Notes under the pieces: generated by a model | Seen by the model: only the letters and a program-made list of their open reading frames with translations | Told to the model about the DNA's origin: nothing | Database searches by the model: none | Program-made: the position numbers and the translations under genes | Shown here: piece after piece, positions 11,765-32,398 of the stretch | How positions within the stretch are numbered: position 1 is the stretch's first letter | How the letters are laid out: each line of letters starts with the position of its first letter | From: Rickettsiella endosymbiont of Xylota segnis | GTDB taxonomy: Bacteria; Pseudomonadota; Gammaproteobacteria; Diplorickettsiales; Diplorickettsiaceae | NCBI RefSeq assembly: GCF_964019545.1 | Contig: NZ_OZ026451.1 | Coordinates: 558,001-622,000 of the forward strand | DNA length: 64,000 nt | Reading direction: 5' to 3'

Positions 11765-12571
11765 ATGCCGAAAATTAAACTTTCTATCAGTATCGTTGTT
11801 TACCAAGAAATTTTTTTACAAATAAAAGATTGTCTTTCAAGCCTTATCGGTTCAATTCCTGATGATATTTGTTATGAAATTACATTAGTAGATAATGGTG
11901 CTTTAGAATTAAATAAAGATTGTAGTTTCGAAATAGAACTAAAAAAATGTTTTCCAAATTTACCGATTTACTATTTGTTTTCGGCTAAAAATGGAGGTTA
12001 TGGTTACGGGCATAATCAAGTAATTTTAAAAAGCAAGGCAGATTACCATCTTATTCTCAACAATGATGTATACATGATGCCGAATACTTTAAAAAATGCA
12101 TTGGATTTTATGCAGCAACATAAGCATGTGGGTATGTTAGTCCCAGATGTTTACGATATGGATGAAAAACGTGTATATCTGTGCCGGCATAACCCAAGTC
12201 TTTGGATTAGTTTTTTACGGCGTTTTGCCCCTGTATTTTTAAAGAAAATTTTTCAAAAAAAATTAAGTAAATTTCAGATGCAAGATAAAAATTATAATGA
12301 AAATATGTTTAAATTAAGTAATCCCACGGGTTGTTTTATGTTCTGTCGATTGGAGTTACTCAAACAATTAGGAGGGTTCGATGAAAAATTCTTTATGTAC
12401 TATGATGATTCTGATTTGGGTCGACGTATGGCAAAAATTTCCCAAATAGCCTATTCACCTACTGTTAGAATTAAACACGTATGGCGGCGTGCGGCTTATC
12501 AAAACAGACGTATGGCATGGATTGCGAGTAAATCAGCGCTATACTATTCCTGGAAATGGTTGTTAAAATAA
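11765..12571 (+). CDS. Glycosyltransferase family 2 (rhamnosyltransferase-like)
   Basis: This is a GT-A fold inverting transferase of 268 residues. It opens with the beta strand SISIVVYQE. The donor site shows LVDNG, then GGYGYGHNQ and LILNNDVYM, where NND is the DXD-equivalent. The later GCFMFCRLELLKQLGGFDEKFFMYYDDSDLG block is typical of WcaE/RfbF-like rhamnosyltransferases, and dTDP-rhamnose genes flank it. Assignment as a rhamnosyltransferase is family-level inference. It overlaps the convergent rfbC by 9 bases. Confidence 0.85.
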   Translation: MPKIKLSISIVVYQEIFLQIKDCLSSLIGSIPDDICYEITLVDNGALELNKDCSFEIELKKCFPNLPIYYLFSAKNGGYGYGHNQVILKSKADYHLILNNDVYMMPNTLKNALDFMQQHKHVGMLVPDVYDMDEKRVYLCRHNPSLWISFLRRFAPVFLKKIFQKKLSKFQMQDKNYNENMFKLSNPTGCFMFCRLELLKQLGGFDEKFFMYYDDSDLGRRMAKISQIAYSPTVRIKHVWRRAAYQNRRMAWIASKSALYYSWKWLLK

Positions 12572-13111
12572 TAATTCAGACGGAATATTTTTTAAGCAAT
12601 TATATTTTTTATCTTTAGTTGATAATAAGGGGGTTTTGAGAGGCCAATTTATAGCCAGGCCAGGGTCTGACCAAAGTATGCCTTGTTCAGCTTCTGCATT
12701 ATAGTAATCACTGCATTTATAATGAAAATCGACGATTTCACTTAGTACACAAAACCCATGAGCAAAGCCTTTTGGGATAAAAAGTTGATAATGATTTTCA
12801 TCATTTAAAATAATACCAAACCATTGACCGAAAGTAGCTGATTCGGTTCTGATATCCACAGCCACATCGAAAGCACTGCCGCGGATGACCGTGATTAATT
12901 TATCTTGTGGTTGTTGGATCTGATAATGCAGCCCCCGCAAAACATTTTTAGTGGAACGAGATAGATTATCTTGCACGAAATTAATTTTTTTTTTCAGTAA
13001 TCGCTGATAACGTTCTGACTGGAAAGCTTCAAAAAAAAAGCCTCGATCATCGTGATGAGATTTAGGATCAATTATAAGTAAATCTTGAATAGGGGTTTGA
13101 ATAACTTTCAT
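12563..13111 (-). CDS. rfbC: dTDP-4-dehydrorhamnose 3,5-epimerase
   Basis: This is the third step of dTDP-L-rhamnose synthesis: double epimerisation of dTDP-4-keto-6-deoxyglucose. The 182-residue cupin has KNVLRGLHYQ, whose His is the catalytic base, followed by KLITVIRGSAFDVAVDIR and FIPKGFAHGF. The start overlaps the rfbA stop by 4 bases, so the two are translationally coupled. The other two pathway genes (rfbD, rfbB) lie on the opposite strand 2.8 kb away, so the usual rfbBDAC operon is split here. Confidence 0.95.
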   Translation of the reverse strand: MKVIQTPIQDLLIIDPKSHHDDRGFFFEAFQSERYQRLLKKKINFVQDNLSRSTKNVLRGLHYQIQQPQDKLITVIRGSAFDVAVDIRTESATFGQWFGIILNDENHYQLFIPKGFAHGFCVLSEIVDFHYKCSDYYNAEAEQGILWSDPGLAINWPLKTPLLSTKDKKYNCLKNIPSELLF

Positions 13112-13980
13112 AATTCGCGCTTAATAATATCGAGTAAATAATTACCATAACTACAGTTTAATAATTTACGTGCAGAAATCTCTAAAGTTTCAGCATTAAT
13201 AAAACCCTTTCGCCAAGCAATTTCTTCTAAACAAGCTATTTTAAGACCTTGGCGCTTTTCAACGACTTGAACAAAATGTGATGCTTCTAATAAAGCATCA
13301 TGGGTTCCCGTGTCTAACCAAGTGCTACCACGACTAATCAATCGATGAGCAAGTTGTCCTTGTGATAAATATTTCAGATTAACATCGGTTATCTCTAATT
13401 CGCCACGCTGCGAGGGTTTAATATTTTTAGCAATATCAATCACTTGATTATCATAAAAATAAAGACCTGTGACAGCCCAATTGGATTTAGGAAGTTTTGG
13501 TTTCTCTTCAATATCAATCAAGTTTTGTTTTTTATCAAACACAGCAACTCCATATCGTTCTGGGTCATTGACATAATAACAAAAAATCTGCGCGCCATAT
13601 TGTTTTCCAGCAGCGGATTTGACAGTTTCGGAAAATTTCTCTCCATAGAACAGATTATCGCCTAAAATAAGTGCTACCGAATCGTCGCCAATAAATTTTT
13701 CACCTATGATAAAAGCTTGAGCTAATCCTTCTGGATTTTCTTGCGTTAAATAATTAAGATTGATACCCCATTGTTGACCGTTTCCTAATAAACCTTGGTA
13801 TTGCTGCAAGGCTTCAATGCTAGTGATGATTAATATTTCCTGAATACCCGCAAGCATTAGAGCGCTGAGTGGATAATAAATCATGGGTTTGTCATAAATC
13901 GGAAGTAACTGCTTACTAATACTTTTAGTTATAGGATGTAGACGCGTACCAGAACCACCGGATAATATAATACCTTTCAC
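13108..13980 (-). CDS. rfbA: Glucose-1-phosphate thymidylyltransferase
   Basis: It makes dTDP-glucose from dTTP and glucose-1-phosphate, the entry to the dTDP-rhamnose route. The 290-residue length is exactly that of RmlA. Motifs are GGSGTRLHPITKSISKQLLP near the N terminus, GDNLFYG, and EEKPKLPKSNWAVTGLYFYD. It heads a two-gene transcript with rfbC. About 100 bases separate it from the divergent glycosyltransferase pair, a space that must carry promoters in both directions. Confidence 0.96.
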   Translation of the reverse strand: MKGIILSGGSGTRLHPITKSISKQLLPIYDKPMIYYPLSALMLAGIQEILIITSIEALQQYQGLLGNGQQWGINLNYLTQENPEGLAQAFIIGEKFIGDDSVALILGDNLFYGEKFSETVKSAAGKQYGAQIFCYYVNDPERYGVAVFDKKQNLIDIEEKPKLPKSNWAVTGLYFYDNQVIDIAKNIKPSQRGELEITDVNLKYLSQGQLAHRLISRGSTWLDTGTHDALLEASHFVQVVEKRQGLKIACLEEIAWRKGFINAETLEISARKLLNCSYGNYLLDIIKREL

Positions 13981-14081
13981 AGATAACTTTCCTTGTTAGT
14001 ATGGGTTTAAAAGCAAATTCTAATTCCATCGCTTCAATTTTCGCTTAGTGTAAGGTATATTAAGCTTCATTAAAATAGCTG

Positions 14082-14957
14082 ATGAACATGATGTCTAAAC
14101 CTGCTGTATTAATTAATATCGTTCTTTATCATCCAGATAAAAACAAAGTTTTGAATCTAATTAATATTTGTTCTCAATATGAAAAAATAAAAATTTTATT
14201 ATTTGATAATACCGAAGATTCCCAAGTGTTTGAGTTCAATAAAGATAAGGATGTTATCTTAATAAAAAGTGCAAAAAATGTTGGTGTAGGTGGTGCACAT
14301 CATACTGCTTGTCAAATGGCAGAAGCAGAAAATTTCGATTTTGTATTATTTTTTGATCAGGATAGTCAGTTAGCAGATAATTTTATTCATGACATGATTT
14401 TGGCCTTTTATCAATTAAAAAAAATACATCCGCGTCTTTGCGCCATTGGACCAACATGGCATGATCCTGATCTTGTAAACTCAAAAACCAGAGCATTAAA
14501 AAATAAGCTTAGATATTTACTCAAAGCACCGAATCTAAAACATGTGTTAATTAGTTCCGGGATGTTGATTTCGGTTCCTACTTTAAAACATATTGGTTAT
14601 CCAAAAAAAGAATATTTTATAGATTTAGTCGATACCGAATGGTGTTTACGTGCTTTATATAAAAATTATCAGATAGTAATGTCTTCTGATGTTGTAATGA
14701 GCCATAGAATAGGTGAAGTTAAGAAATATAAGAAGTTAAATGTTCAATATGAACAACCCATTCGCTATTATTATTCTATACGCAATAGTTTTTTGTTATT
14801 TCATGAAGAAAATATTTTGTTATCCCATAAGATTTTTATTTTAGCAGGGAACTTATTTAAATTAAGAAAAATAATTTTTTCTCCGAAACCTATACAAAGT
14901 TTAATTGCAGCGGGTCGGGGTATTAAAGATGGATTTTTATTGATAAAGCGATTTTAA
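14082..14957 (+). CDS. Glycosyltransferase family 2 (rhamnosyltransferase-like), copy 1
   Basis: This GT-A protein of up to 291 residues begins with VLINIVLYHPDKNKV. It has LLFDNTEDS, NVGVGGAHHTAC and LFFDQDSQL, where DQD is the metal site, then FIDLVDTEWCLRAL. It is a clear paralogue of the next gene. Comparison with that gene favours the third Met (14091, MSKPAVL) as the true start, because the other copy begins MSGPTVLINIVLY. It lies in a plus-strand run with rfbD and rfbB, which fits a dTDP-rhamnose donor; the donor is inferred from context. Confidence 0.87.
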   Translation: MNMMSKPAVLINIVLYHPDKNKVLNLINICSQYEKIKILLFDNTEDSQVFEFNKDKDVILIKSAKNVGVGGAHHTACQMAEAENFDFVLFFDQDSQLADNFIHDMILAFYQLKKIHPRLCAIGPTWHDPDLVNSKTRALKNKLRYLLKAPNLKHVLISSGMLISVPTLKHIGYPKKEYFIDLVDTEWCLRALYKNYQIVMSSDVVMSHRIGEVKKYKKLNVQYEQPIRYYYSIRNSFLLFHEENILLSHKIFILAGNLFKLRKIIFSPKPIQSLIAAGRGIKDGFLLIKRF

Positions 14958-14994
14958 CTGCATAGTTCAATAGGTAATATAATTAAGGAAAATA

Positions 14995-15897
14995 ATGTCT
15001 GGCCCTACAGTTTTAATTAATATTGTACTTTATAACCCCGATCCATCCAAAGTATCAGAGCTTATTCGTATTTGTTGTATTTATCAACAGGCTAAAATTT
15101 TGTTATTTGATAATTCAGATAATTTCCAATTATTGAATTACAAAAAAACAGAAAAAATAATTTTTTATAAAAGCGCACAAAATGTGGGTATAGCGGGCGC
15201 GCATTATTACGCGTGTAAACTTGCTGAAAAGGGAAATTATAATTTTATACTATTTTTAGACCAAGATACGCAACTTCCTGAATTTTTTGTTAGTAATATG
15301 ATATTAGAATTTTATCAATTACAAAAAATATATTCTCGTCTGGTAGCTATTGGACCTTCATGGAAAGATCCTAGAACTTATGATTGGCATCAAGAGAAAA
15401 ACAATAAATTCACTGTGAAAAATATATTGAAAAAAAAATTTAAAATTGCAATAAAAATAAATAATTTGATAAGATTAAATAATGTTATTATTAGTTCTGG
15501 TATGTTAGTTTTAGTTAAATATTTAAAGAATATTGGTTATCCAAAGAAAGAGTATTTTATTGATTTAGTTGATTTGGAATGGTGTTTGCGCGCACTTTCT
15601 AAAGATTATCATGTTGAAATGGTAAAAAATATTCAGGTTAAGCATACTATTGGTGAAATTAAAAAAAACAAAAATAGACTTATCCATTATCAAAATCCAC
15701 TTCGGTATTATTATTCTATACGAAATAGTTTTTTGCTTTTTCGAGAAAAACAATATCCCCTGGATTTTCGTTTTTTTATATTGATTCGAAATATATTGGA
15801 AATTAAAAAAATTCCTTTTGTTCCTGAATCTAAAAAAAGTTTATTAGCTGCAATCCGAGGCATAAAAGATGGGATTTTTATAAAAAAAAATTACTGA
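14995..15897 (+). CDS. Glycosyltransferase family 2 (rhamnosyltransferase-like), copy 2
   Basis: This 300-residue paralogue of the upstream gene shares the order LINIVLYNPD, LLFDNSDN, NVGIAGAHYYAC, LFLDQDTQL, YPKKEYFIDLVDLEWCLRAL and NPLRYYYSIRNSFLLF. AAGGAA lies 6 bases before the ATG. The two copies probably add successive rhamnose-type residues with different acceptors or linkages. They are far enough apart to have specialised. The copies differ in a central stretch near residues 125-155. Confidence 0.87.
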   Translation: MSGPTVLINIVLYNPDPSKVSELIRICCIYQQAKILLFDNSDNFQLLNYKKTEKIIFYKSAQNVGIAGAHYYACKLAEKGNYNFILFLDQDTQLPEFFVSNMILEFYQLQKIYSRLVAIGPSWKDPRTYDWHQEKNNKFTVKNILKKKFKIAIKINNLIRLNNVIISSGMLVLVKYLKNIGYPKKEYFIDLVDLEWCLRALSKDYHVEMVKNIQVKHTIGEIKKNKNRLIHYQNPLRYYYSIRNSFLLFREKQYPLDFRFFILIRNILEIKKIPFVPESKKSLLAAIRGIKDGIFIKKNY

Positions 15898-15924
15898 AAT
15901 AAGTTAAACATAAGGATTATTTTG

Positions 15925-16809
15925 ATGTCTTATTCTGGAAATATATTATTAACAGGTGCAAATGGTCAATTAGGTAATGAAATTGTTAATGCGGCGAAAA
16001 ATCTTAACTTAAAAATATATCCTGTCACACGGACACAGCTTAATATTACAAATCTTGCACAAATTGAGTATATTTTAGCAACAATTAAACCAAATTATAT
16101 TATTAATGCTGCAGCTTACACGGCGGTTGATAAAGCTGAAAAGGAAAGTGAGCTTGCTTTTAGTATAAATGCATTGGGGGTTAAAAACTTAGCTAAAATC
16201 GCTCAAAAATACGACATACCTTTATTGCATATTTCTACAGATTATGTTTTTGATGGTCAAAAAAAAAATGCTTATAGTGAAGAAGATCAAGCCCGACCCT
16301 TGTCTGCTTATGGTCAAAGTAAATTAAGTGGCGAAAATTTTTTAAGAGATATCTGGTGTAAACATATTATTTTACGGGTCAGTTGGGTGTTTGGAGCGTT
16401 CGGTAATAATTTTGTGAGAACTATTATTCGCTTAGCTAGCGAGCGAAATGAATTAAGGATTATTACTGACCAAAAAGGCGCTCCGACTTACGCGGGAGAT
16501 ATTGCCCAGGCGTTACTAAAAATAATAGAGTGTCTAGATAAGGGGCAGACTGATTGGGGCACTTACCATTATACTGGAACACCCCCTCTAAGTTGGTACG
16601 AATTTGCTAAGAAAATAGTGAATGAAGCAAAACAACATCAACAATTTATTCTAAAAGAAATTATACCTATTACGGCATCAGAATATCCCAGTATTGCACA
16701 TAGGCCTTTTAATTCTGAGCTGGCTTGTCAAAAAATCACACAAACTTTTAACATTAAACCTAATAATTGGTCTGACGGTTTATCCAATGTGATTAAAATT
16801 TTATTATGA
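15925..16809 (+). CDS. rfbD: dTDP-4-dehydrorhamnose reductase
   Basis: This is the last step to dTDP-L-rhamnose: NAD(P)H reduction of dTDP-4-keto-L-rhamnose. It is an SDR with LLTGANGQLGNEI at the N terminus, ISTDYVFDGQ, AYGQSKLSGE (Tyr and Lys of the active site) and VSWVFGAFGNNFV. I chose ATG 15925, which has AGGA 8 bases upstream, rather than the in-frame TTG at 15922. The stop overlaps the rfbB start in an ATGA, so the two are coupled. Confidence 0.95.
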   Translation: MSYSGNILLTGANGQLGNEIVNAAKNLNLKIYPVTRTQLNITNLAQIEYILATIKPNYIINAAAYTAVDKAEKESELAFSINALGVKNLAKIAQKYDIPLLHISTDYVFDGQKKNAYSEEDQARPLSAYGQSKLSGENFLRDIWCKHIILRVSWVFGAFGNNFVRTIIRLASERNELRIITDQKGAPTYAGDIAQALLKIIECLDKGQTDWGTYHYTGTPPLSWYEFAKKIVNEAKQHQQFILKEIIPITASEYPSIAHRPFNSELACQKITQTFNIKPNNWSDGLSNVIKILL

Positions 16810-17807
16810 CTTATACACCCAAGAACGTTTTAGTCACTGGTGGTGCAGGTTTTATTGCCAGTCATTTTGTGCATTATTACCAAAATCATTATCCGGAAAC
16901 ATTTATTGTAAACCTTGATAAACTTACTTATGCAGGATCATTAAATAATTTAAAAAATTTAATTTTGCCAGAACAACATCACTTTGTACAAGGGGATATA
17001 CTTGATAGAGATTTAGTGTTGAAATTATTGAAGAATTTTGAGATAGACACGCTTGTTCATTTTGCAGCTGAAACACATGTTGATCGTTCGATTAATACAC
17101 CCGAAAAATTTATACAAACTAATGTTTCAGGCACGTTCAGTTTGTTAGATTCATGTCGGAAATATTGGTTGGAAGAATTGGGTTTAAGCAAGCGTGATTG
17201 CCGATTTCACCATATTTCTACCGACGAAGTATATGGTAGCTTACAGAAAGATGAGCCCGCATTTACTGAGATTATGCCTTACCGACCAAATTCTCCTTAC
17301 TCTGCTAGTAAAGCGTCTTCAGACTATCTGGTACGCGCTTATTATAATACTTATGGGCTTCCTGTTACTATAACTAATTGTTCAAATAATTATGGTCCTC
17401 TGCAATACACTGAAAAGTTTATTCCAACTATTATAGATTGTTGCTTACGACAAAAACCTATCCCTATCTATGGTAATGGTTCAAATATACGTGATTGGCT
17501 CTATGTAGAAGATCACTGTAGTGGGATCGATAGTGTGATTCGAAATGGCAGATTAGGAGAAAGCTATAATATTGGTGGCAATACTGAATTAAGCAATTTA
17601 GAAGTTATAAACTTCATCTTTGATGGGTTAAGAAAAATTAGATCTGTGAACTTTGAATATAAGGATCTTATATCATTTGTAAAAGATCGTCCTGGGCATG
17701 ATTGGCGTTATGCGATCAATGCTGAAAAAATAAACAAAGAATTAGCTTGGCAACCTAAAGAAACATTTTCTTCAGGAATTTTAAAAACCATAACTGCTTA
17801 TCAATAG
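16806..17807 (+). CDS. rfbB: dTDP-glucose 4,6-dehydratase
   Basis: It converts dTDP-glucose to dTDP-4-keto-6-deoxyglucose using bound NAD. It is a 333-residue extended SDR with LVTGGAGFIASHFV, HFAAETHVDRSI, HISTDEVYGSL (acid/base Asp-Glu pair) and PYSASKASSDYLV (Tyr-xxx-Lys). NCSNNYGP and RDWLYVEDHC are typical RmlB signatures. It closes the GT2-GT2-rfbD-rfbB run and is convergent with the methyltransferase at 17862. Confidence 0.96.
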   Translation: MTYTPKNVLVTGGAGFIASHFVHYYQNHYPETFIVNLDKLTYAGSLNNLKNLILPEQHHFVQGDILDRDLVLKLLKNFEIDTLVHFAAETHVDRSINTPEKFIQTNVSGTFSLLDSCRKYWLEELGLSKRDCRFHHISTDEVYGSLQKDEPAFTEIMPYRPNSPYSASKASSDYLVRAYYNTYGLPVTITNCSNNYGPLQYTEKFIPTIIDCCLRQKPIPIYGNGSNIRDWLYVEDHCSGIDSVIRNGRLGESYNIGGNTELSNLEVINFIFDGLRKIRSVNFEYKDLISFVKDRPGHDWRYAINAEKINKELAWQPKETFSSGILKTITAYQ

Positions 17808-20758: not shown

Positions 20759-21565
20759 ATGAAAGCTGTTATTTTAGCCGGTGGAGCAGGAACTCGCATT
20801 AGCGAAGAAACTAGTTTTCGTCCTAAGCCTATGATTGAAATAGGTGGTAAACCTATAATATGGCATATCATGAAAATATTTTCAGCATACGGGATCTACG
20901 ATTTTATTATTTGTTTAGGCTATAAAGGCTATCTCATTAAAGAATATTTTTCTAATTACTATTTACATACGTCAGATGTGACTTTTGACATGACTAAAAA
21001 TCAGACTAAAATCCATCAGAATAAAGCAGAACCTTGGAAAATTACTTTAGTGGAAACGGGTGAACATACCATGACAGGAGGACGACTAAAGAGAATTGCT
21101 CCTTATCTGGATGATGAAGATTTTTGTTTTACTTATGGAGATGGGTTGGGGAATGTCAACCTTAATGCATTGATCCAGTTTCACAAACTTCAAAAGACCT
21201 TAGCTACTTTAACAGCGGTGCAAACCGTCGGAAGATTTGGAGCGTTAGATATTTCTAATAAAAAAGTTGTTGCTTTCAAAGAAAAGCCTCAAGGAGATGG
21301 TGCTTGGATTAATGGAGGTTTTTTTGTTTTATCACCTCTTGTATTGAATTACATAGATAACGACAATACATTATGGGAAAAGCAACCCTTGGAGACCTTA
21401 GCGAAAGAGGGTGAGTTATCTGCTTTTTTTCATCATGATTTCTGGCACCCTATGGATACATTGCGTGATAAAAATATTTTAGAAGAAGTCTGGGCTTCAG
21501 GTAGCGCCTCCTGGAAAATTTGGGAAAATAAATCTCATAGGAAGGAAAGCACAATTTGTACCTAA
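20759..21565 (+). CDS. rfbF: Glucose-1-phosphate cytidylyltransferase
   Basis: It makes CDP-glucose from CTP and glucose-1-phosphate, the first committed step to CDP-3,6-dideoxyhexoses. The 268-residue length fits RfbF/AscA. Motifs are VILAGGAGTRISEETSFRPK, PMIEIGGKPIIWHIMK, NYYLHTSDVTFDM and GRLKRIAPYL, followed by the FTYGDGLGNV metal site. An AAGGAT lies 7 bases before the ATG. rfbG starts just after its stop, so these are one operon. Confidence 0.96.
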   Translation: MKAVILAGGAGTRISEETSFRPKPMIEIGGKPIIWHIMKIFSAYGIYDFIICLGYKGYLIKEYFSNYYLHTSDVTFDMTKNQTKIHQNKAEPWKITLVETGEHTMTGGRLKRIAPYLDDEDFCFTYGDGLGNVNLNALIQFHKLQKTLATLTAVQTVGRFGALDISNKKVVAFKEKPQGDGAWINGGFFVLSPLVLNYIDNDNTLWEKQPLETLAKEGELSAFFHHDFWHPMDTLRDKNILEEVWASGSASWKIWENKSHRKESTICT

Positions 21566-21577
21566 TTGATAATTAAT

Positions 21578-22669
21578 ATGGAATTTTGGCAGGGAAAAAC
21601 AGTATTATTAACGGGTCATACTGGCTTTAAAGGCAGCTGGTTATCTTTATGGATGCAATCTCTAGGTGTTAACCTAATAGGTTATTCATTAGCTCCAGCC
21701 GCTTCTCCTAATCTCTTTGAAATATCACAGCTGCAGAAGGGAATGATAAATATCATAAATGATATACGAGATTATGTAAGCTTACACGCTGTGATCCAAA
21801 AATATCAACCCGAAATTATTATTCATATGGCTGCTCAATCACTAGTACGACATTCTTATCAAGCTCCTTTACAAACTTATTCAACAAACGTTATGGGTAC
21901 AATAAATTTGTTAGAAGCAGCACGATTGACAGAGTCTGTCAAAGTTATAGTCAATGTTACCAGTGATAAATGCTATGAAAACTCCGAGTTAAATAAGAAA
22001 TTTAACGAAAAAGACAGGCTAGGTGGTTATGATCCATACAGTAATAGTAAGGCGTGTTCCGAATTAATTACTCAAACTTATCGGAATGTCTATTTTAAAG
22101 AACGAGGTGTAGGCATTGCTACAGCAAGAGCTGGGAACGTTATAGGAGGCGGAGATTGGGCTAAGGATCGTTTAGTCCCGGATGTACTCATTGCCTGCAT
22201 GAAACAAGAAGATATTTTACTACGCTATCCAGATGCTTTACGTCCTTGGCAGCATGTTTTACAACCACTCTACGGCTATTTAACATTGAGTAAACTCTTA
22301 TATTCATCACCAGAAAATTATTCAGAAAGTTGGAACTTTGGACCAGATTTGGAGGATATAAAATCTGTAAGCTGGATTACTGATTATCTTATTGAAAGTT
22401 GCAATAGCTCAATTAGGTGGATCAAAGATGAAAATAAGCATCTATACGAAGCGAGTACCTTACAATTGGATTGCACTAAAGCAAAAGAACATTTGAATTG
22501 GACTTCGGTATGGAATTTAGAAATAGCGCTTAAAAAAACCGTAGAATGGTTTTCCGGCTATCAAGATGGAGTAAATATGCTTGAAAAGACACTAAGCCAA
22601 ATTAACCAATTTAGTAATGAATGCAGGATATTACAAAAAGAAATAGTTAAGGAAACATTGCATGGCTAA
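21578..22669 (+). CDS. rfbG: CDP-glucose 4,6-dehydratase
   Basis: It converts CDP-glucose to CDP-4-keto-6-deoxyglucose. It is an extended SDR with VLLTGHTGFKGSWLSLWMQ (the RfbG form of the glycine loop), HMAAQSLVRHSY, VTSDKCYEN and GGYDPYSNSKACSEL with the catalytic Tyr and Lys. I place the start at ATG 21578 (MEFWQGK). The open frame reaches a TTG at 21566 directly after the rfbF stop, adding four residues. The stop overlaps the next start by 8 bases. Confidence 0.95.
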   Translation: MEFWQGKTVLLTGHTGFKGSWLSLWMQSLGVNLIGYSLAPAASPNLFEISQLQKGMINIINDIRDYVSLHAVIQKYQPEIIIHMAAQSLVRHSYQAPLQTYSTNVMGTINLLEAARLTESVKVIVNVTSDKCYENSELNKKFNEKDRLGGYDPYSNSKACSELITQTYRNVYFKERGVGIATARAGNVIGGGDWAKDRLVPDVLIACMKQEDILLRYPDALRPWQHVLQPLYGYLTLSKLLYSSPENYSESWNFGPDLEDIKSVSWITDYLIESCNSSIRWIKDENKHLYEASTLQLDCTKAKEHLNWTSVWNLEIALKKTVEWFSGYQDGVNMLEKTLSQINQFSNECRILQKEIVKETLHG

Positions 22670-23879
22670 GGAATTTATTCATGTACCCTATGGAAAATCG
22701 GTCCATGGAGAAGAAGAAATTGATGCTGTTGTTTCTGTATTGCGTCGTTCAACACAGATGGGGCAAGCAGTTCGAGAAATGGAAAAAAAAGTATCAAAAT
22801 TGTTTAGTAAAAAATTTGGAATTATGCTTAATTCGGGTTCTTCGGCAAATTATTTAGCGGTAGAAATATTAAAGTTGCCGAAATTTTCTGAAGTAATCAC
22901 ACCCGCATTAACTTTTTCAACTACGGTAGCACCTTTAATTAAAAATAGATTAATTCCAGTTTTTATCGATGTTGAATTAGATACATTTAATATTGATGTT
23001 GATCAGATAGAGAGTATGATCAGTCCCCAAACTAAAGCTTTAATGATCCCAAATTTACTTGGAAATTTACCCGATTGGAAAAAAATTAGAATAATTGCGG
23101 ATAAATATAATTTAATTGTTATCGAGGATTCTTGCGATACGCTGGGTGCTACTTTTTATGGAAATGCTAGCGGTTTTTATTCGGATGTCAGCACAACAAG
23201 TTTTTATGGCTCACATATCATTAACTGTGCTGGAAATGGTGGTATGTTGTGTGTAAATAATCCAAGTTTTGCAGAAAAAGCTATGTTACTACGGAGTTGG
23301 GGACGTAGTTCTTCATTATATATAGAGTCAGAAAGTATACAAACTCGTTTTCAAAAAAAAATTGAACAGTTCGATTACGACGCTAAATTTATCTTTGAAG
23401 AAATTGGTTATAATTTAGAACCATCTGAGTTAGGAGCGGCATTTGGTTTGGTTCAGCTATCTAAGTTGAAACAAAATATAATAAGTCGTCAAGAAGTATT
23501 CACTTCACATTTAAATTTTTTTTCTGACTATAAAGATTGGTTTATTTTTCCAAAACAATTACCGCATACCCAAACAGCTTGGTTAGCTTTTCCACTGATT
23601 GTGAAAGACGATGCACCATTTAATCGTAAAGATTTGCAAATCTATTTAGAAAACAGAAATATTCAAACTAGAACTATATTTACTGGAAATATTTTACGAC
23701 AACCTGGATTTAAAAAAATTTTGCGGCGTGAAATAGAGTCAGGGTATCCTCATACCGATCAAATAATGCGCGGAGGTATTCTAATTGGTAGCCATCATGG
23801 TATGACAGACGCTATGGTAAAAAATATTTATGAAAGTTTTAAAGACTTTGAAAAAAGTTATACAAGTATTTATATTTAG
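22662..23879 (+). CDS. rfbH: RfbH-like CDP-4-keto-6-deoxyglucose 3-dehydratase (DegT/DnrJ/EryC1 family)
   Basis: This PLP/PMP-fold enzyme is expected to remove the 3-hydroxyl of CDP-4-keto-6-deoxyglucose. The 405-residue protein has NSGSSANYLAVEIL, EDSCDTLGATF (the Asp that binds the cofactor ring) and SFYGSHIINCAGNGG. There His185 replaces the lysine of aminotransferases, which marks dehydratases of the RfbH/ColD type. Unlike classical RfbH, it has no cysteine after C197 and lacks the DCYC-type iron-sulfur ligands; the loop reads RSWGRSSSLYIESESIQT. It may therefore work as ColD does, without a separate reductase. Context (rfbF-rfbG-rfbH) supports the CDP substrate. Confidence 0.85.
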   Translation: MAKEFIHVPYGKSVHGEEEIDAVVSVLRRSTQMGQAVREMEKKVSKLFSKKFGIMLNSGSSANYLAVEILKLPKFSEVITPALTFSTTVAPLIKNRLIPVFIDVELDTFNIDVDQIESMISPQTKALMIPNLLGNLPDWKKIRIIADKYNLIVIEDSCDTLGATFYGNASGFYSDVSTTSFYGSHIINCAGNGGMLCVNNPSFAEKAMLLRSWGRSSSLYIESESIQTRFQKKIEQFDYDAKFIFEEIGYNLEPSELGAAFGLVQLSKLKQNIISRQEVFTSHLNFFSDYKDWFIFPKQLPHTQTAWLAFPLIVKDDAPFNRKDLQIYLENRNIQTRTIFTGNILRQPGFKKILRREIESGYPHTDQIMRGGILIGSHHGMTDAMVKNIYESFKDFEKSYTSIYI

Positions 23880-24336: not shown

Positions 24337-25404
24337 ATGAATAGAAAGATTGTAAATAATGATATAGAAAGCATATCTTGTAATGAACTTGCTTGGTATA
24401 GGCTTGCAAATAAAACTATTTTAATAACCGGTGCAAATGGGTTTCTACCCGCTTACATGATAGAAACGCTATGCCATTTAAACGAGGTTAAACGTTATAA
24501 TATAAAAATTTTAGCTTTTGCTAGAAATAAAGAAAAAACCTTAATTCGTTTTACATCCTACTTAAATCGAAGCTATCTAACTTTTTTTTTTCAAGATATT
24601 TGTTTACCCATTGATATATCTTTGAAGATCGATTATATAATTCACGCTGCGAGTCAAGCTAGTCCAAAATTTTATGGTATTGATCCCGTTGGAACTTTGT
24701 CAGCTAATGTATTAGGAACATATCATCTATTAGAATTAGCTAAATCGCAAAAAATTGAAGGATTCTTATATTTCAGTTCTGGAGAAGTTTACGGAGAAGT
24801 TGATTTAGCCCAAACACCTATTAGTGAAAAAAACTATGGATATCTTGATCCGACGCACATCCGATCTTGCTATGCTGAAAGCAAAAGAATGGGGGAAAAT
24901 TTGTGTGTTTCCTATGCACATCAATACCAATTGCATGTTACTATAGCTCGTCCTTTCCATATTTATGGTCCGGGAATGAGTTTAAGTGACGGTCGGGTTT
25001 ATGCTGATTTTGTCGCAGATATATTTTATAACAGAGATATTACGATTTATGGAACAGGTACAGCAATAAGATCATTCTGTTATATAGCTGATGCTACTTT
25101 AGGTTTTTTTACTTTATTATTAAATGGACAAAATGCACAAGCCTACAATATAGGTAATCCTGATTGTTGTTTAAGTATTATGGATCTTGCTATTCGATTA
25201 AGAGATTTATTTTGTGAAAAAGAATTAAAGGTAATAAAAAAAACTAGATCTTTAAAGTCTGTTTATTTAGAAAGCAAAATTACAATCAATACGCCCGATA
25301 TTAAAAAAATTCAAACATTGGGTTGGTTTCCGAAAATTACAATTGAAGAAGGATTTTTAAGGACCATTAGGAGTTTTTATGAGCTTGATTGCATGCAGGG
25401 ATAA
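24337..25404 (+). CDS. NAD-dependent epimerase/dehydratase/reductase (extended SDR)
   Basis: This 355-residue nucleotide-sugar SDR has ILITGANGFLPAYMIETL near residue 35, HAASQASP, YFSSGEVYGEV and SCYAESKRMGENL with the catalytic Tyr and Lys. RPFHIYGPG and SFCYIADAT follow. The ~30-residue extension before the Rossmann fold is unusual for a simple epimerase. In the CDP-dideoxyhexose setting it may reduce a keto group, as paratose/abequose synthases do, or the new carbonyl made by the ThDP enzyme. Epimerase activity is equally possible. It is overlapped by the next gene by 26 bases. Confidence 0.8.
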   Translation: MNRKIVNNDIESISCNELAWYRLANKTILITGANGFLPAYMIETLCHLNEVKRYNIKILAFARNKEKTLIRFTSYLNRSYLTFFFQDICLPIDISLKIDYIIHAASQASPKFYGIDPVGTLSANVLGTYHLLELAKSQKIEGFLYFSSGEVYGEVDLAQTPISEKNYGYLDPTHIRSCYAESKRMGENLCVSYAHQYQLHVTIARPFHIYGPGMSLSDGRVYADFVADIFYNRDITIYGTGTAIRSFCYIADATLGFFTLLLNGQNAQAYNIGNPDCCLSIMDLAIRLRDLFCEKELKVIKKTRSLKSVYLESKITINTPDIKKIQTLGWFPKITIEEGFLRTIRSFYELDCMQG

Positions 25405-26302
25405 ATTTCAAGCAGGCCACCTATCAAAGGCAGATTACGTAGAGGCTATGGGTGATTTCCATGCCTATTTATTTGAATATTCTAAATTTATCAAAAATAC
25501 TGATATTTTAAACATAGAAATACTTGAAGATTGTTTAATCTTTACTTTAAAAAGTTTGGACATAAAGCTGCAATGTCATATTTTAGATAAAAGAATTACG
25601 CCTATTGAAATTTTAAATTTTAACTCTTACGAAAAACAAGATGCTGATATTTTCTTTAGCTTACTTAAAAAAGATATGGTATTTTTTGATATTGGAGCCC
25701 ACATAGGCTTTTACTCAATTAATGCTGCAAAACGTCACGAAACGATAAAAGTATATTCATTTGAGCCGATACCTCAAACCTTTGAATTGTTACAAAAAAA
25801 TATTTATATAAACAAATTGAATAATATTTTTTTTTATAATGTTGGTTTACTTGATAGGGACAAAGAGGTCGACTTTTTTTTTAATCCTACTATGTCTGGA
25901 AATGCTTCGGCCAGAAACTTAGCAGAGGAAACTTCTATAAAAAAAGTTTCGGCAAAGGTTACTTCCTTAGATGATTTTTTACTCGCTCAACAACTTGAGA
26001 GAATTGATATTATTAAATGTGATGTTGAAGGTGGTGAATTGCTTGTTTTTCAGGGAGGAGAAAAAGCTATAAGAAAACATACTCCAATAATATTTACTGA
26101 AATGTTAAGGAAATGGTCGAAAAAATTTAATTATCATCCAAATGATATAATTAGTTTACTAGCGAGTTGTGGCTATCAATGCTATATCAGTCAAAATGAT
26201 AAACTAACCGAATTTAATAAAATGGATGATGCTACAGTAGCGACTAACTTCTTTTTTTTACATCGATATAAGCATCAACAACACATTCAACGATTATCCT
26301 GA
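25379..26302 (+). CDS. FkbM family methyltransferase
   Basis: This 307-residue SAM methyltransferase has MVFFDIGAHIGFYSINAA (SAM loop), VYSFEPIPQTFELLQKNI and IDIIKCDVEGGELLVFQGG, a standard FkbM layout. AGGAG lies 7 bases before ATG 25379, supporting a start inside the previous gene. The family methylates hydroxyls on sugars and other metabolites; O-methylation of the unusual sugar made by this operon is a reasonable guess. T runs of nine lie in the frame near 25828 and 25874. Confidence 0.85.
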   Translation: MSLIACRDKFQAGHLSKADYVEAMGDFHAYLFEYSKFIKNTDILNIEILEDCLIFTLKSLDIKLQCHILDKRITPIEILNFNSYEKQDADIFFSLLKKDMVFFDIGAHIGFYSINAAKRHETIKVYSFEPIPQTFELLQKNIYINKLNNIFFYNVGLLDRDKEVDFFFNPTMSGNASARNLAEETSIKKVSAKVTSLDDFLLAQQLERIDIIKCDVEGGELLVFQGGEKAIRKHTPIIFTEMLRKWSKKFNYHPNDIISLLASCGYQCYISQNDKLTEFNKMDDATVATNFFFLHRYKHQQHIQRLS

Positions 26303-27266: not shown

Positions 27267-28151
27267 ATGAAAGTTGCAATACTAGGAAGTGGCAACATTG
27301 GTACTGATTTATTAATGAAAATTCTTCGCTCGCCTTATTTAGAATGCGGCGTATTAATTGGTCGAAATCCCTCATCTAAAGGACTACAAAAAGCTCGTCA
27401 ATTAGGTGTTAACACATCAATTTCTGGAATAGATTATATTCAAAAAAATTTGGATTGCTGTGAAATAGTCTTTGATGCAACTTCAGCGGCTGCTCATTTA
27501 ACACATGCTCCGATTTTAAAAAATTTGGATAAATTTACCATTGATCTCACACCGGCAAAAATAGGAGAAATGTGCATACCGATCATAAATTTAGACCACG
27601 CTTTGCAATATAAAAACGTGAATATGATAACCTGTGGTGGTCAAGCCACTTTACCCATAATTTATGCCCTCAGCGCTTCAGGTGTGAAAATTCAATATAT
27701 AGAAGTCGTATCTAGTATTGCTTCAGCAAGTGCAGGACCTGCTACCCGAGTTAATTTAGATGAATATATTCATACTACTGAGCAAGCGATAAAATTCTTT
27801 ACAGGTATTTCGCAAACTAAAGCAATTTTAAATCTTAATCCTGCATTTCCTTGTATCGATATGCAAACCACTATTTTTGCTAAAGTTAAATATTTAGATA
27901 TGCAAAAATTTACTAGATTAGCAGAAGATATTGAGAAAAAAGTTCAGAACTATGTCCCGGGTTATAAAATACTTTTAAATCCTTTAATAGAAAATAAGCG
28001 TATTATTGTGATCGTACAAGTGAAAGGCCAAGGTGATTATCTTCCTGATTATGCTGGAAATCTTGATATTATTAACTGTGCTGCTTTGGCGATAGCAGAA
28101 AAATATGCCTTAAGTAGACTGAGTAAGGAAATTCAATGCGAGCAATCTTAA
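27267..28151 (+). CDS. Acylating aldehyde dehydrogenase (acetaldehyde dehydrogenase, MhpF/DmpF family)
   Basis: This 294-residue protein carries GSGNIGTDL (7-15, NAD loop), FDATSAAAHL and the active-site MITCGGQATLP with Cys123. SSIASASAGPATRVNLDEY and the later LNPAFPCIDMQTTIFA complete the family signature. Known members interconvert acetaldehyde (or another short aldehyde), CoA and NAD+ with acyl-CoA, and form a channelling complex with a DmpG-type aldolase. That aldolase gene follows and overlaps by 16 bases. In a polysaccharide operon it more likely runs in the reductive direction to supply an aldehyde. This is not a usual O-antigen gene. Confidence 0.92.
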   Translation: MKVAILGSGNIGTDLLMKILRSPYLECGVLIGRNPSSKGLQKARQLGVNTSISGIDYIQKNLDCCEIVFDATSAAAHLTHAPILKNLDKFTIDLTPAKIGEMCIPIINLDHALQYKNVNMITCGGQATLPIIYALSASGVKIQYIEVVSSIASASAGPATRVNLDEYIHTTEQAIKFFTGISQTKAILNLNPAFPCIDMQTTIFAKVKYLDMQKFTRLAEDIEKKVQNYVPGYKILLNPLIENKRIIVIVQVKGQGDYLPDYAGNLDIINCAALAIAEKYALSRLSKEIQCEQS

Positions 28152-29146
28152 TCAGTGATCCTACTTTAAGAGATGGAAATCATGCCGTAAAACATCAATT
28201 AAATGCGGATCAGATTGCTAAGTATTGTATCGCCGCAGAAGCTGCAGGTATACCTATCGTGGAGGTAGGCCATGGTAATGGCTTAGGTGCATCTTCTTTG
28301 CAACTTGGAATAGCTAAACTGACAGATAATGAAACCCTTAGCATAGCTAGAACCTATCTTAAAAAATCTCGTTTAGGTATTCATATTATTCCTGGATTTG
28401 CAACCATTGAAAAAGATTTGCGTCCGGCAATTGATGGAGGAGTTGATGTGGTGCGCGTCGCTTCACATTGCTCTGAAGCAGATATCACAGAACGACATAT
28501 ACAATTTGTTCGTATGCGCGAAAAAACCGTTTATGGTGTACTAATGATGGCACATATGCTTAGCAGCAAAGAATTGCTTATTCAAGCTGCTAAAATGGAA
28601 GCTTATGGAGCTCAGGGTATAGTTTTTATGGACTCTGCAGGAAATTTTTTGCCGGAGGATGTGATTGAAAGAGTACAAGTTTTAGTTGATCATCTTTCAA
28701 TCCCGGTAGGATTTCACGCGCATAATAATTTAGGGCTTGCCATTGCCAACTCATTAGCTGCTGTAGAAGCTGGAGCAAGTATTTTGGATGGTTGTGCATG
28801 CGGTTTCGGAGCAGGTGCGGGTAATACTCAACTTGAAGTGCTGGTGGGAATCCTTGAAAGAAAAGGTTATCAGACAGGAATTGATTTTTATAAAATGCTC
28901 GACGCTAGCAAGATAGCTGAACGAGAACTATTGAAAGAAATTCCTTCAATAAAGTCATTAAGTATTATCAGTGGGCTTGCAGGTGTTTTCTCTGGATTTC
29001 TACAACCTGTTTTGCGTATTGCAAAAGAATTTAACGTTGATCCCCGAGATATTTTTATTGAACTGGGGCGACGTAGAATTATAGCCGGGCAAGAGGATAT
29101 CATCATTGAAGTGGCTAGTGATTTGGCGAAAAAACATGCTAAATAA
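28136..29146 (+). CDS. 4-hydroxy-2-oxovalerate aldolase family (MhpE/DmpG/BphI)
   Basis: This 336-residue class II pyruvate aldolase has SDPTLRDGNHAV (8-17) with Arg12, Asp13 and His16 in the positions of the BphI catalytic and metal residues. It also has GFHAHNNLGLAIANS with metal ligands His194 and His196, and GFGAGAGNTQLEVL. The family splits or forms 4-hydroxy-2-oxo acids from pyruvate and an aldehyde. It is translationally coupled to the acylating dehydrogenase and precedes a ThDP enzyme that could use the 2-oxo acid. Degradation of aromatics, the usual role, is not supported: no ring-cleavage genes are present. Confidence 0.92.
   Translation: MRAILISDPTLRDGNHAVKHQLNADQIAKYCIAAEAAGIPIVEVGHGNGLGASSLQLGIAKLTDNETLSIARTYLKKSRLGIHIIPGFATIEKDLRPAIDGGVDVVRVASHCSEADITERHIQFVRMREKTVYGVLMMAHMLSSKELLIQAAKMEAYGAQGIVFMDSAGNFLPEDVIERVQVLVDHLSIPVGFHAHNNLGLAIANSLAAVEAGASILDGCACGFGAGAGNTQLEVLVGILERKGYQTGIDFYKMLDASKIAERELLKEIPSIKSLSIISGLAGVFSGFLQPVLRIAKEFNVDPRDIFIELGRRRIIAGQEDIIIEVASDLAKKHAK

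Positions 29147-29213: not shown

Positions 29214-32398
<3,185 letters not shown>

Follow-up and report, generated by a model that had tools for sequence, protein, structure and literature searches.

How does a nucleotide-sugar 3-dehydratase resembling E1 (RfbH) work when most ligands of the E1 [2Fe-2S] cluster are missing from it? The question is raised by a gene of the Rickettsiella endosymbiont of Xylota segnis, within a stretch of 64,000 nucleotides (positions 558,001 to 622,000 of contig NZ_OZ026451.1) referred to here as the window. A 2022 review of nucleotide-sugar dehydratases contains only two routes: E1 and SpnQ depend on a reductase and on electron transfer via an iron-sulfur cluster, while the GDP-sugar enzyme ColD proceeds by hydrolysis, after which glutamate restores PMP (PMC8987622). 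ColD-type C3-dehydratases need PLP and glutamate but no reductase (PMC10440746).

Active site and predicted fold

The gene is an intact and complete open reading frame (Table 1), the first 8 bases of which are shared with the end of the CDP-glucose 4,6-dehydratase frame. Its product matches PF01041 (DegT/DnrJ/EryC1/StrS) with 247.7 bits against a cutoff of 19.8, whereas the NCBIfam equivalog for E1/RfbH, NF011936, scores it at 322 bits, below the curated cutoff of 423. The closest solved relatives are E1 dehydrase (PDB 3bcx, E=5e-66) and ColD (E about 5e-50). A further entry, PDB 9wvy (‘putative NDP-4-keto-6-deoxyglucose-3-dehydratase’), matches weakly, and no paper describing it turned up in the literature search.

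Table 1. Features of the dehydratase gene and its neighbours, in window coordinates.
Feature	Coordinates	Strand	Remarks
Glucose-1-phosphate cytidylyltransferase (RfbF)	20759..21565	+	TIGR02623 above cutoff
CDP-glucose 4,6-dehydratase (RfbG)	21566..22669	+	TIGR02622 above cutoff
Fe-S-free His-type nucleotide-sugar 3-dehydratase, DegT family, 405 aa	22662..23879	+
Cys158 codon	23133..23135	+	aligned with E1 ligand C193; Ala in most relatives, Cys in ColD
Ser184 codon	23211..23213	+	Ser187 in ColD, Ala219 in E1
Catalytic His185 codon	23214..23216	+	aligns with E1 His220, ColD His188 and Lys of aminotransferases
RSWGRSSSL signature, residues 211-219	23292..23318	+	E1 has RDWGRDCYC with ligands C251, C253
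SDR / NAD-dependent epimerase-dehydratase, branched-sugar cassette	24337..25404	+
FkbM-family methyltransferase	25379..26302	+
Acylating acetaldehyde dehydrogenase	27267..28151	+	TIGR03215 above cutoff
4-hydroxy-2-oxovalerate aldolase	28136..29146	+	TIGR03217 above cutoff
ThDP-dependent YerE/ErwE/JanthE-type carboligase, CDG ThDP motif	29214..31082	+	8rph (JanthE) E=1.7e-237

The dehydrase residues His185, Asp159 and Tyr182 are retained and the catalytic lysine is absent. An earlier note, made from the letters of the window, had placed a dehydratase histidine where aminotransferases carry lysine, and alignment with His220 of E1 bears this out: the column of the PLP-binding lysine that marks DegT aminotransferases holds His185, in the context SFYGSH against SFYPAK in PLP aminotransferases. 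With Ser184 it forms a Ser-His pair equivalent to Ser187-His188 of ColD, whereas E1 has Ala-His. A PDB entry, 3gr9, is titled ‘ColD H188K S187N’.

The protein contains only three cysteines, C158, C189 and C197, and none beyond the last, as the same note had stated. The E1 ligand columns 193/251/253/261 are occupied by C158/S217/L219/I226, so that three of the four [2Fe-2S] cysteines are missing. These columns fit the published C-X57-C-X1-C-X7-C motif. The ligand loop reads RSWGRSSSLY, just as quoted, and the description ‘without iron-sulfur cysteines’ holds for the replaced C251, C253 and C261; what it missed is the alignment of C158 with C193, a match of no diagnostic value, since cysteine occurs there in ColD as well and alanine in most close relatives. 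The combination by which ColD is recognized, a His-type active site free of Fe-S ligands, is present in the window enzyme. The GNGG loop and Ser triad of its clade differ from both E1 and ColD.

An initial structural model from 9 sequences (pLDDT 75), weak around the active-site loops, gave way to a second one built from 43 sequences, with a mean pLDDT of 94. VIA-align of this model gives Z 51.8 for E1 (rmsd 2.4, 383 residues) and Z 50.0 for ColD (rmsd 2.1, 375 residues), with aminotransferases close behind at about 49. The comparison with E1 and ColD that had been suggested thus returned both as best matches, but with Z scores so close that the fold cannot choose between them.

Distribution and phylogeny of the clade

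Eight close relatives, with 57-73% identity, came from one scan of about 85,000 species genomes; they belong to Coxiellaceae, other Gammaproteobacteria, Alphaproteobacteria and a Verrucomicrobia MAG. Relatives carry the public annotation ‘DegT/DnrJ/EryC1/StrS family aminotransferase’ or a comparable name. Searches by class and phylum across 767 genomes added more members along with many E1 and ColD types. Scoring of the four ligand columns in the main census, an approach that the earlier note had recommended together with a phylogeny, separates the groups beyond what chance would give: all 38 E1-type proteins read CCCC, while all 15 members of the window group lack the three loop cysteines and carry RSWGRSSS[L/I]. 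None of C158, C189 and C197 is conserved across the clade, and in every member examined the catalytic lysine is replaced by histidine. The wider signature RSWGR[ST]SS[LI] is common to close homologues in Gamma- and Alphaproteobacteria, the Verrucomicrobia MAG and viral contigs; alphaproteobacterial plasmids of Roseibium, Palleronia, Ensifer and Sinorhizobium, including pSymB of S. meliloti, carry the form RSWGR[S/T]SSL. Within the genus of the window the dehydratase was found in only 5 of 10 genomes, some complete genomes being without it, a patchiness to be expected of a variable surface-polysaccharide locus.

Three viral contigs (L099-L101) encode true members of the clade within a complete rfbF-rfbG-dehydratase triad. 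Another 77 (L102-L178) carry a related clade of cluster-free His-type dehydratases, 39-44% identical to the window enzyme, with the motifs TTSFYASHxITAGGxGG and RDWGRxG..SE. A YerE-like ThDP gene is also present in 23 of 80 viral loci, and one viral contig with a cluster-free dehydratase (L166) also has homologues (48%) of the acetaldehyde dehydrogenase and 4-hydroxy-2-oxovalerate aldolase at positions 15214-17053.

A quick tree left E1, ColD and the window clade unresolved; they were resolved by a careful rooted tree with more rows. There the window group (98/99), E1 (100/100), ColD (99/96) and the viral-contig group (100/100) are each single supported clades. E1 is sister to the window and viral-contig groups together, with ColD outside (98/87), and the window enzyme is placed outside both the E1 and the ColD clades. 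Rooting support is moderate, the outgroup being distant, cluster-free aminotransferases. Given this cluster-free outgroup, a single gain of the Fe-S cluster, probably in E1, is the simplest history. The earlier note had presented the window enzyme as an RfbH homologue without iron-sulfur cysteines; the tree favours a lineage in which the cluster was never present over an RfbH from which it was lost. Recent loss in a single host-associated lineage is ruled out by the spread of the clade and its separate, supported position. A broader scenario, which we put forward tentatively, is that C3 deoxygenation of CDP sugars exists in two interchangeable forms of which the Fe-S-free form is the older: a cluster-free ancestor would have given rise to E1 by one gain, and the window clade and the large viral-contig clade would have retained chemistry that needs no cluster, perhaps with regeneration unlike that of ColD.

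Gene neighbourhood and reductases

The dehydratase gene lies directly downstream of RfbF and RfbG. In 22 of the 23 clade loci (the window included, and with L100 and L101 as near-copies) rfbF-rfbG adjoin the dehydratase, and therefore the substrate of the window enzyme is almost certainly a CDP sugar. Genes of dTDP-rhamnose type flank the locus (12563-17807 of the window), and two similar glycosyltransferases lie in tandem at 14082-14957 and 14995-15897.

The ThDP enzyme of the window is very closely related to JanthE, with which it has the unusual CDG motif in common. ErwE combines 4-hydroxy-2-oxo acids with CDP-4-keto-3,6-dideoxyglucose as acceptor to give erwiniose (PMC12247030), and JanthE accepts 4-hydroxy-2-oxovalerate (PMC12188165). 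With the aldolase and acetaldehyde dehydrogenase that would make the donor, also shared with erwiniose/JanthE-type pathways, the gene neighbourhood resembles a branched-sugar pathway of erwiniose type; such a pathway requires CDP-4-keto-3,6-dideoxyglucose. Where the pathways differ is the 3-dehydratase step. The cluster-free enzyme takes this step in the window and its Coxiellaceae-type relatives, and it is also the enzyme carried by L003, L079 and L080, whereas in a genome of another class (L089) the same cassette contains an Fe-S E1 (CCCC), alongside a ThDP enzyme with the CDG motif (58% identity), aldolase (70%), acetaldehyde dehydrogenase (63%), SDR (57%) and FkbM methyltransferase (45%). 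A related acetaldehyde dehydrogenase-aldolase-ThDP set (L088; ThDP enzyme only 33% identical) is accompanied by E1 and a linked E3. The Fe-S-free enzyme and Fe-S E1 appear interchangeable, performing the same step, and for this reason the swap within the cassette is the strongest functional argument. On plasmids of Roseibium and Palleronia (L182, L186) a class I methyltransferase and an SDR come after the triad, with no ThDP enzyme, an arrangement pointing to a different branched sugar; the methyltransferase of L186 is a sugar C-methyltransferase (PF08484).

No E3 gene is present in the operon, as had been noted, and no E3-like reductase was found in any of the 23 clade loci. A genome-wide search of the complete genome of the window (99.98% complete) likewise gave no E3-type fusion: its sole PF00175 match is a 247-residue FAD/NAD reductase that lacks a ferredoxin domain, and its sole Fer2 match lies in an 804-residue frame. 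PF00175 was absent from 6 of the 8 other carriers of the first scan, all of them draft assemblies; in better assemblies it occurs at least once in 20 of 20 genomes (1-3 times in carriers), counts that do not separate the groups cleanly. The missing E3 was nevertheless rejected as strong evidence, although the earlier note had relied on it. In the same search only 3 of 12 Fe-S E1 loci had a linked E3 and 9 (L092-L098 and others) had none, which makes linkage an unreliable marker of E1 pathways. The case for the predicted cluster independence rests on the missing ligands.

Proposed function and comparison with known systems

To our knowledge, the ColD route is the only characterized option for an enzyme of this kind without a cluster. 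It is likely that the window enzyme is a cluster-free CDP-4-keto-6-deoxyglucose 3-dehydratase that uses ColD-like PMP/glutamate chemistry and has no dedicated reductase. PMP would form a ketimine with the C4 ketone of CDP-4-keto-6-deoxy-D-glucose, His185 would take the C4' proton and the C3 hydroxyl would depart. Hydrolysis of the resulting PLP-bound 3,4-hexoseen would then yield PLP and an enamine sugar, which would tautomerize and lose ammonia to give CDP-4-keto-3,6-dideoxyglucose, the most likely acceptor for the neighbouring JanthE/ErwE-type ThDP enzyme. With 4-hydroxy-2-oxopentanoate, provided by the adjacent aldolase and acetaldehyde dehydrogenase, as donor, the ThDP step may lead to an erwiniose-like branched sugar of 10 carbons (6+4). 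By analogy with ColD, L-glutamate would return PLP to PMP. The regeneration half-reaction is not readable from the sequence, and this glutamate cycle is the least certain step. The proposal of ColD-like chemistry on a CDP sugar, already made in the earlier note, agrees with the His-type site, the absence of a [2Fe-2S] site, the CDP context and the Ser-His pair, whereas regeneration by glutamate is carried over from ColD.

Against this reading, no assay was found for any clade member, the sequence is a little closer to E1 (35% identity) than to ColD (30%), and E1 rather than ColD is the sister group in the tree. The same placement (98/87), the three cysteines of the window copy and the generic FAD/NAD reductase encoded elsewhere in the genome could favour an enzyme of E1 type that remains dependent on an outside electron supply, whether straight from a flavin reductase or flavodoxin or via a cluster ligated in another way. 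This is very unlikely, as the loop cysteines are missing throughout the clade, C158, C189 and C197 are not conserved, and several carrier genomes, in draft form, contain no reductase of the PF00175 family.

An ordinary aminotransferase producing a CDP-4-amino-4,6-dideoxy sugar would suit the DegT family (PF01041) and the public annotation of relatives, and SpnQ, a His-type dehydrase, can transaminate without a reductase; ColD and E1 did not do so, however, in the reductase-free conditions used for SpnQ (PMC8987622). Since the catalytic lysine is histidine in all members examined and the same cassette elsewhere carries E1, such an activity is highly improbable. The clade-specific GNGG loop and Ser motif, unlike those of both characterized dehydratases, and the loci with a C-methyltransferase (PF08484) in place of the ThDP enzyme, the products of which must differ, would leave room for an enzyme that acts on the CDP-4-keto sugar with no net C3 deoxygenation, for example by C3 epimerization or to another elimination product. 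We consider this unlikely, because the window enzyme takes the place of E1 in an otherwise shared cassette, and 4-keto-3,6-dideoxyglucose is the sugar used by ErwE, a member of that ThDP family.

The preferred reading, a cluster-free CDP-sugar 3-dehydratase, would, if true, represent a third type, and no description of such an enzyme was found in the open-access papers searched. It would also ease a problem of production: one group failed to obtain active recombinant E1/E3, suspected dysfunctional Fe-S clusters and dropped that route to CDP-3,6-dideoxy sugars (PMC7851689). The clade is accessible to study through cultured carriers such as Roseibium, Ensifer adhaerens and Sinorhizobium meliloti, and it is relevant to the question of why E1 contains a cluster in the first place.

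The enzyme belongs to a widespread, unstudied branch of the 3-dehydratase family that occurs in bacteria and on some viral contigs. With E1/RfbH/AscC, the CDP-4-keto-6-deoxyglucose 3-dehydrase, it shares the fold, the histidine in place of lysine, the rfbF-rfbG linkage, a sister-clade relationship and the same or a related downstream cassette; it differs in the absence of three cluster ligands, in Ser-His for Ala-His, in one extra residue in the GNGG loop and in having no linked E3. SpnQ of the spinosyn pathway is likewise a His-type 3-dehydratase that does not depend on a reductase of its own, but it has a [2Fe-2S] motif, uses general ferredoxin/flavodoxin reductases and acts on a TDP-sugar (PMC8987622). 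ColD (PDB 2gms), the GDP-4-keto-6-deoxymannose 3-dehydratase, has in common the fold, the Ser-His pair and the lack of an Fe-S cluster; it forms a separate clade and uses GDP-sugars, and ColD-type genes adjoin GDP-mannose 4,6-dehydratase in L188 and L089, whereas the window clade adjoins rfbF-rfbG. The window enzyme thus stands outside E1/RfbH by score, ligands and clade, and outside ColD by clade and nucleotide context; it probably works like ColD on the substrate of E1.
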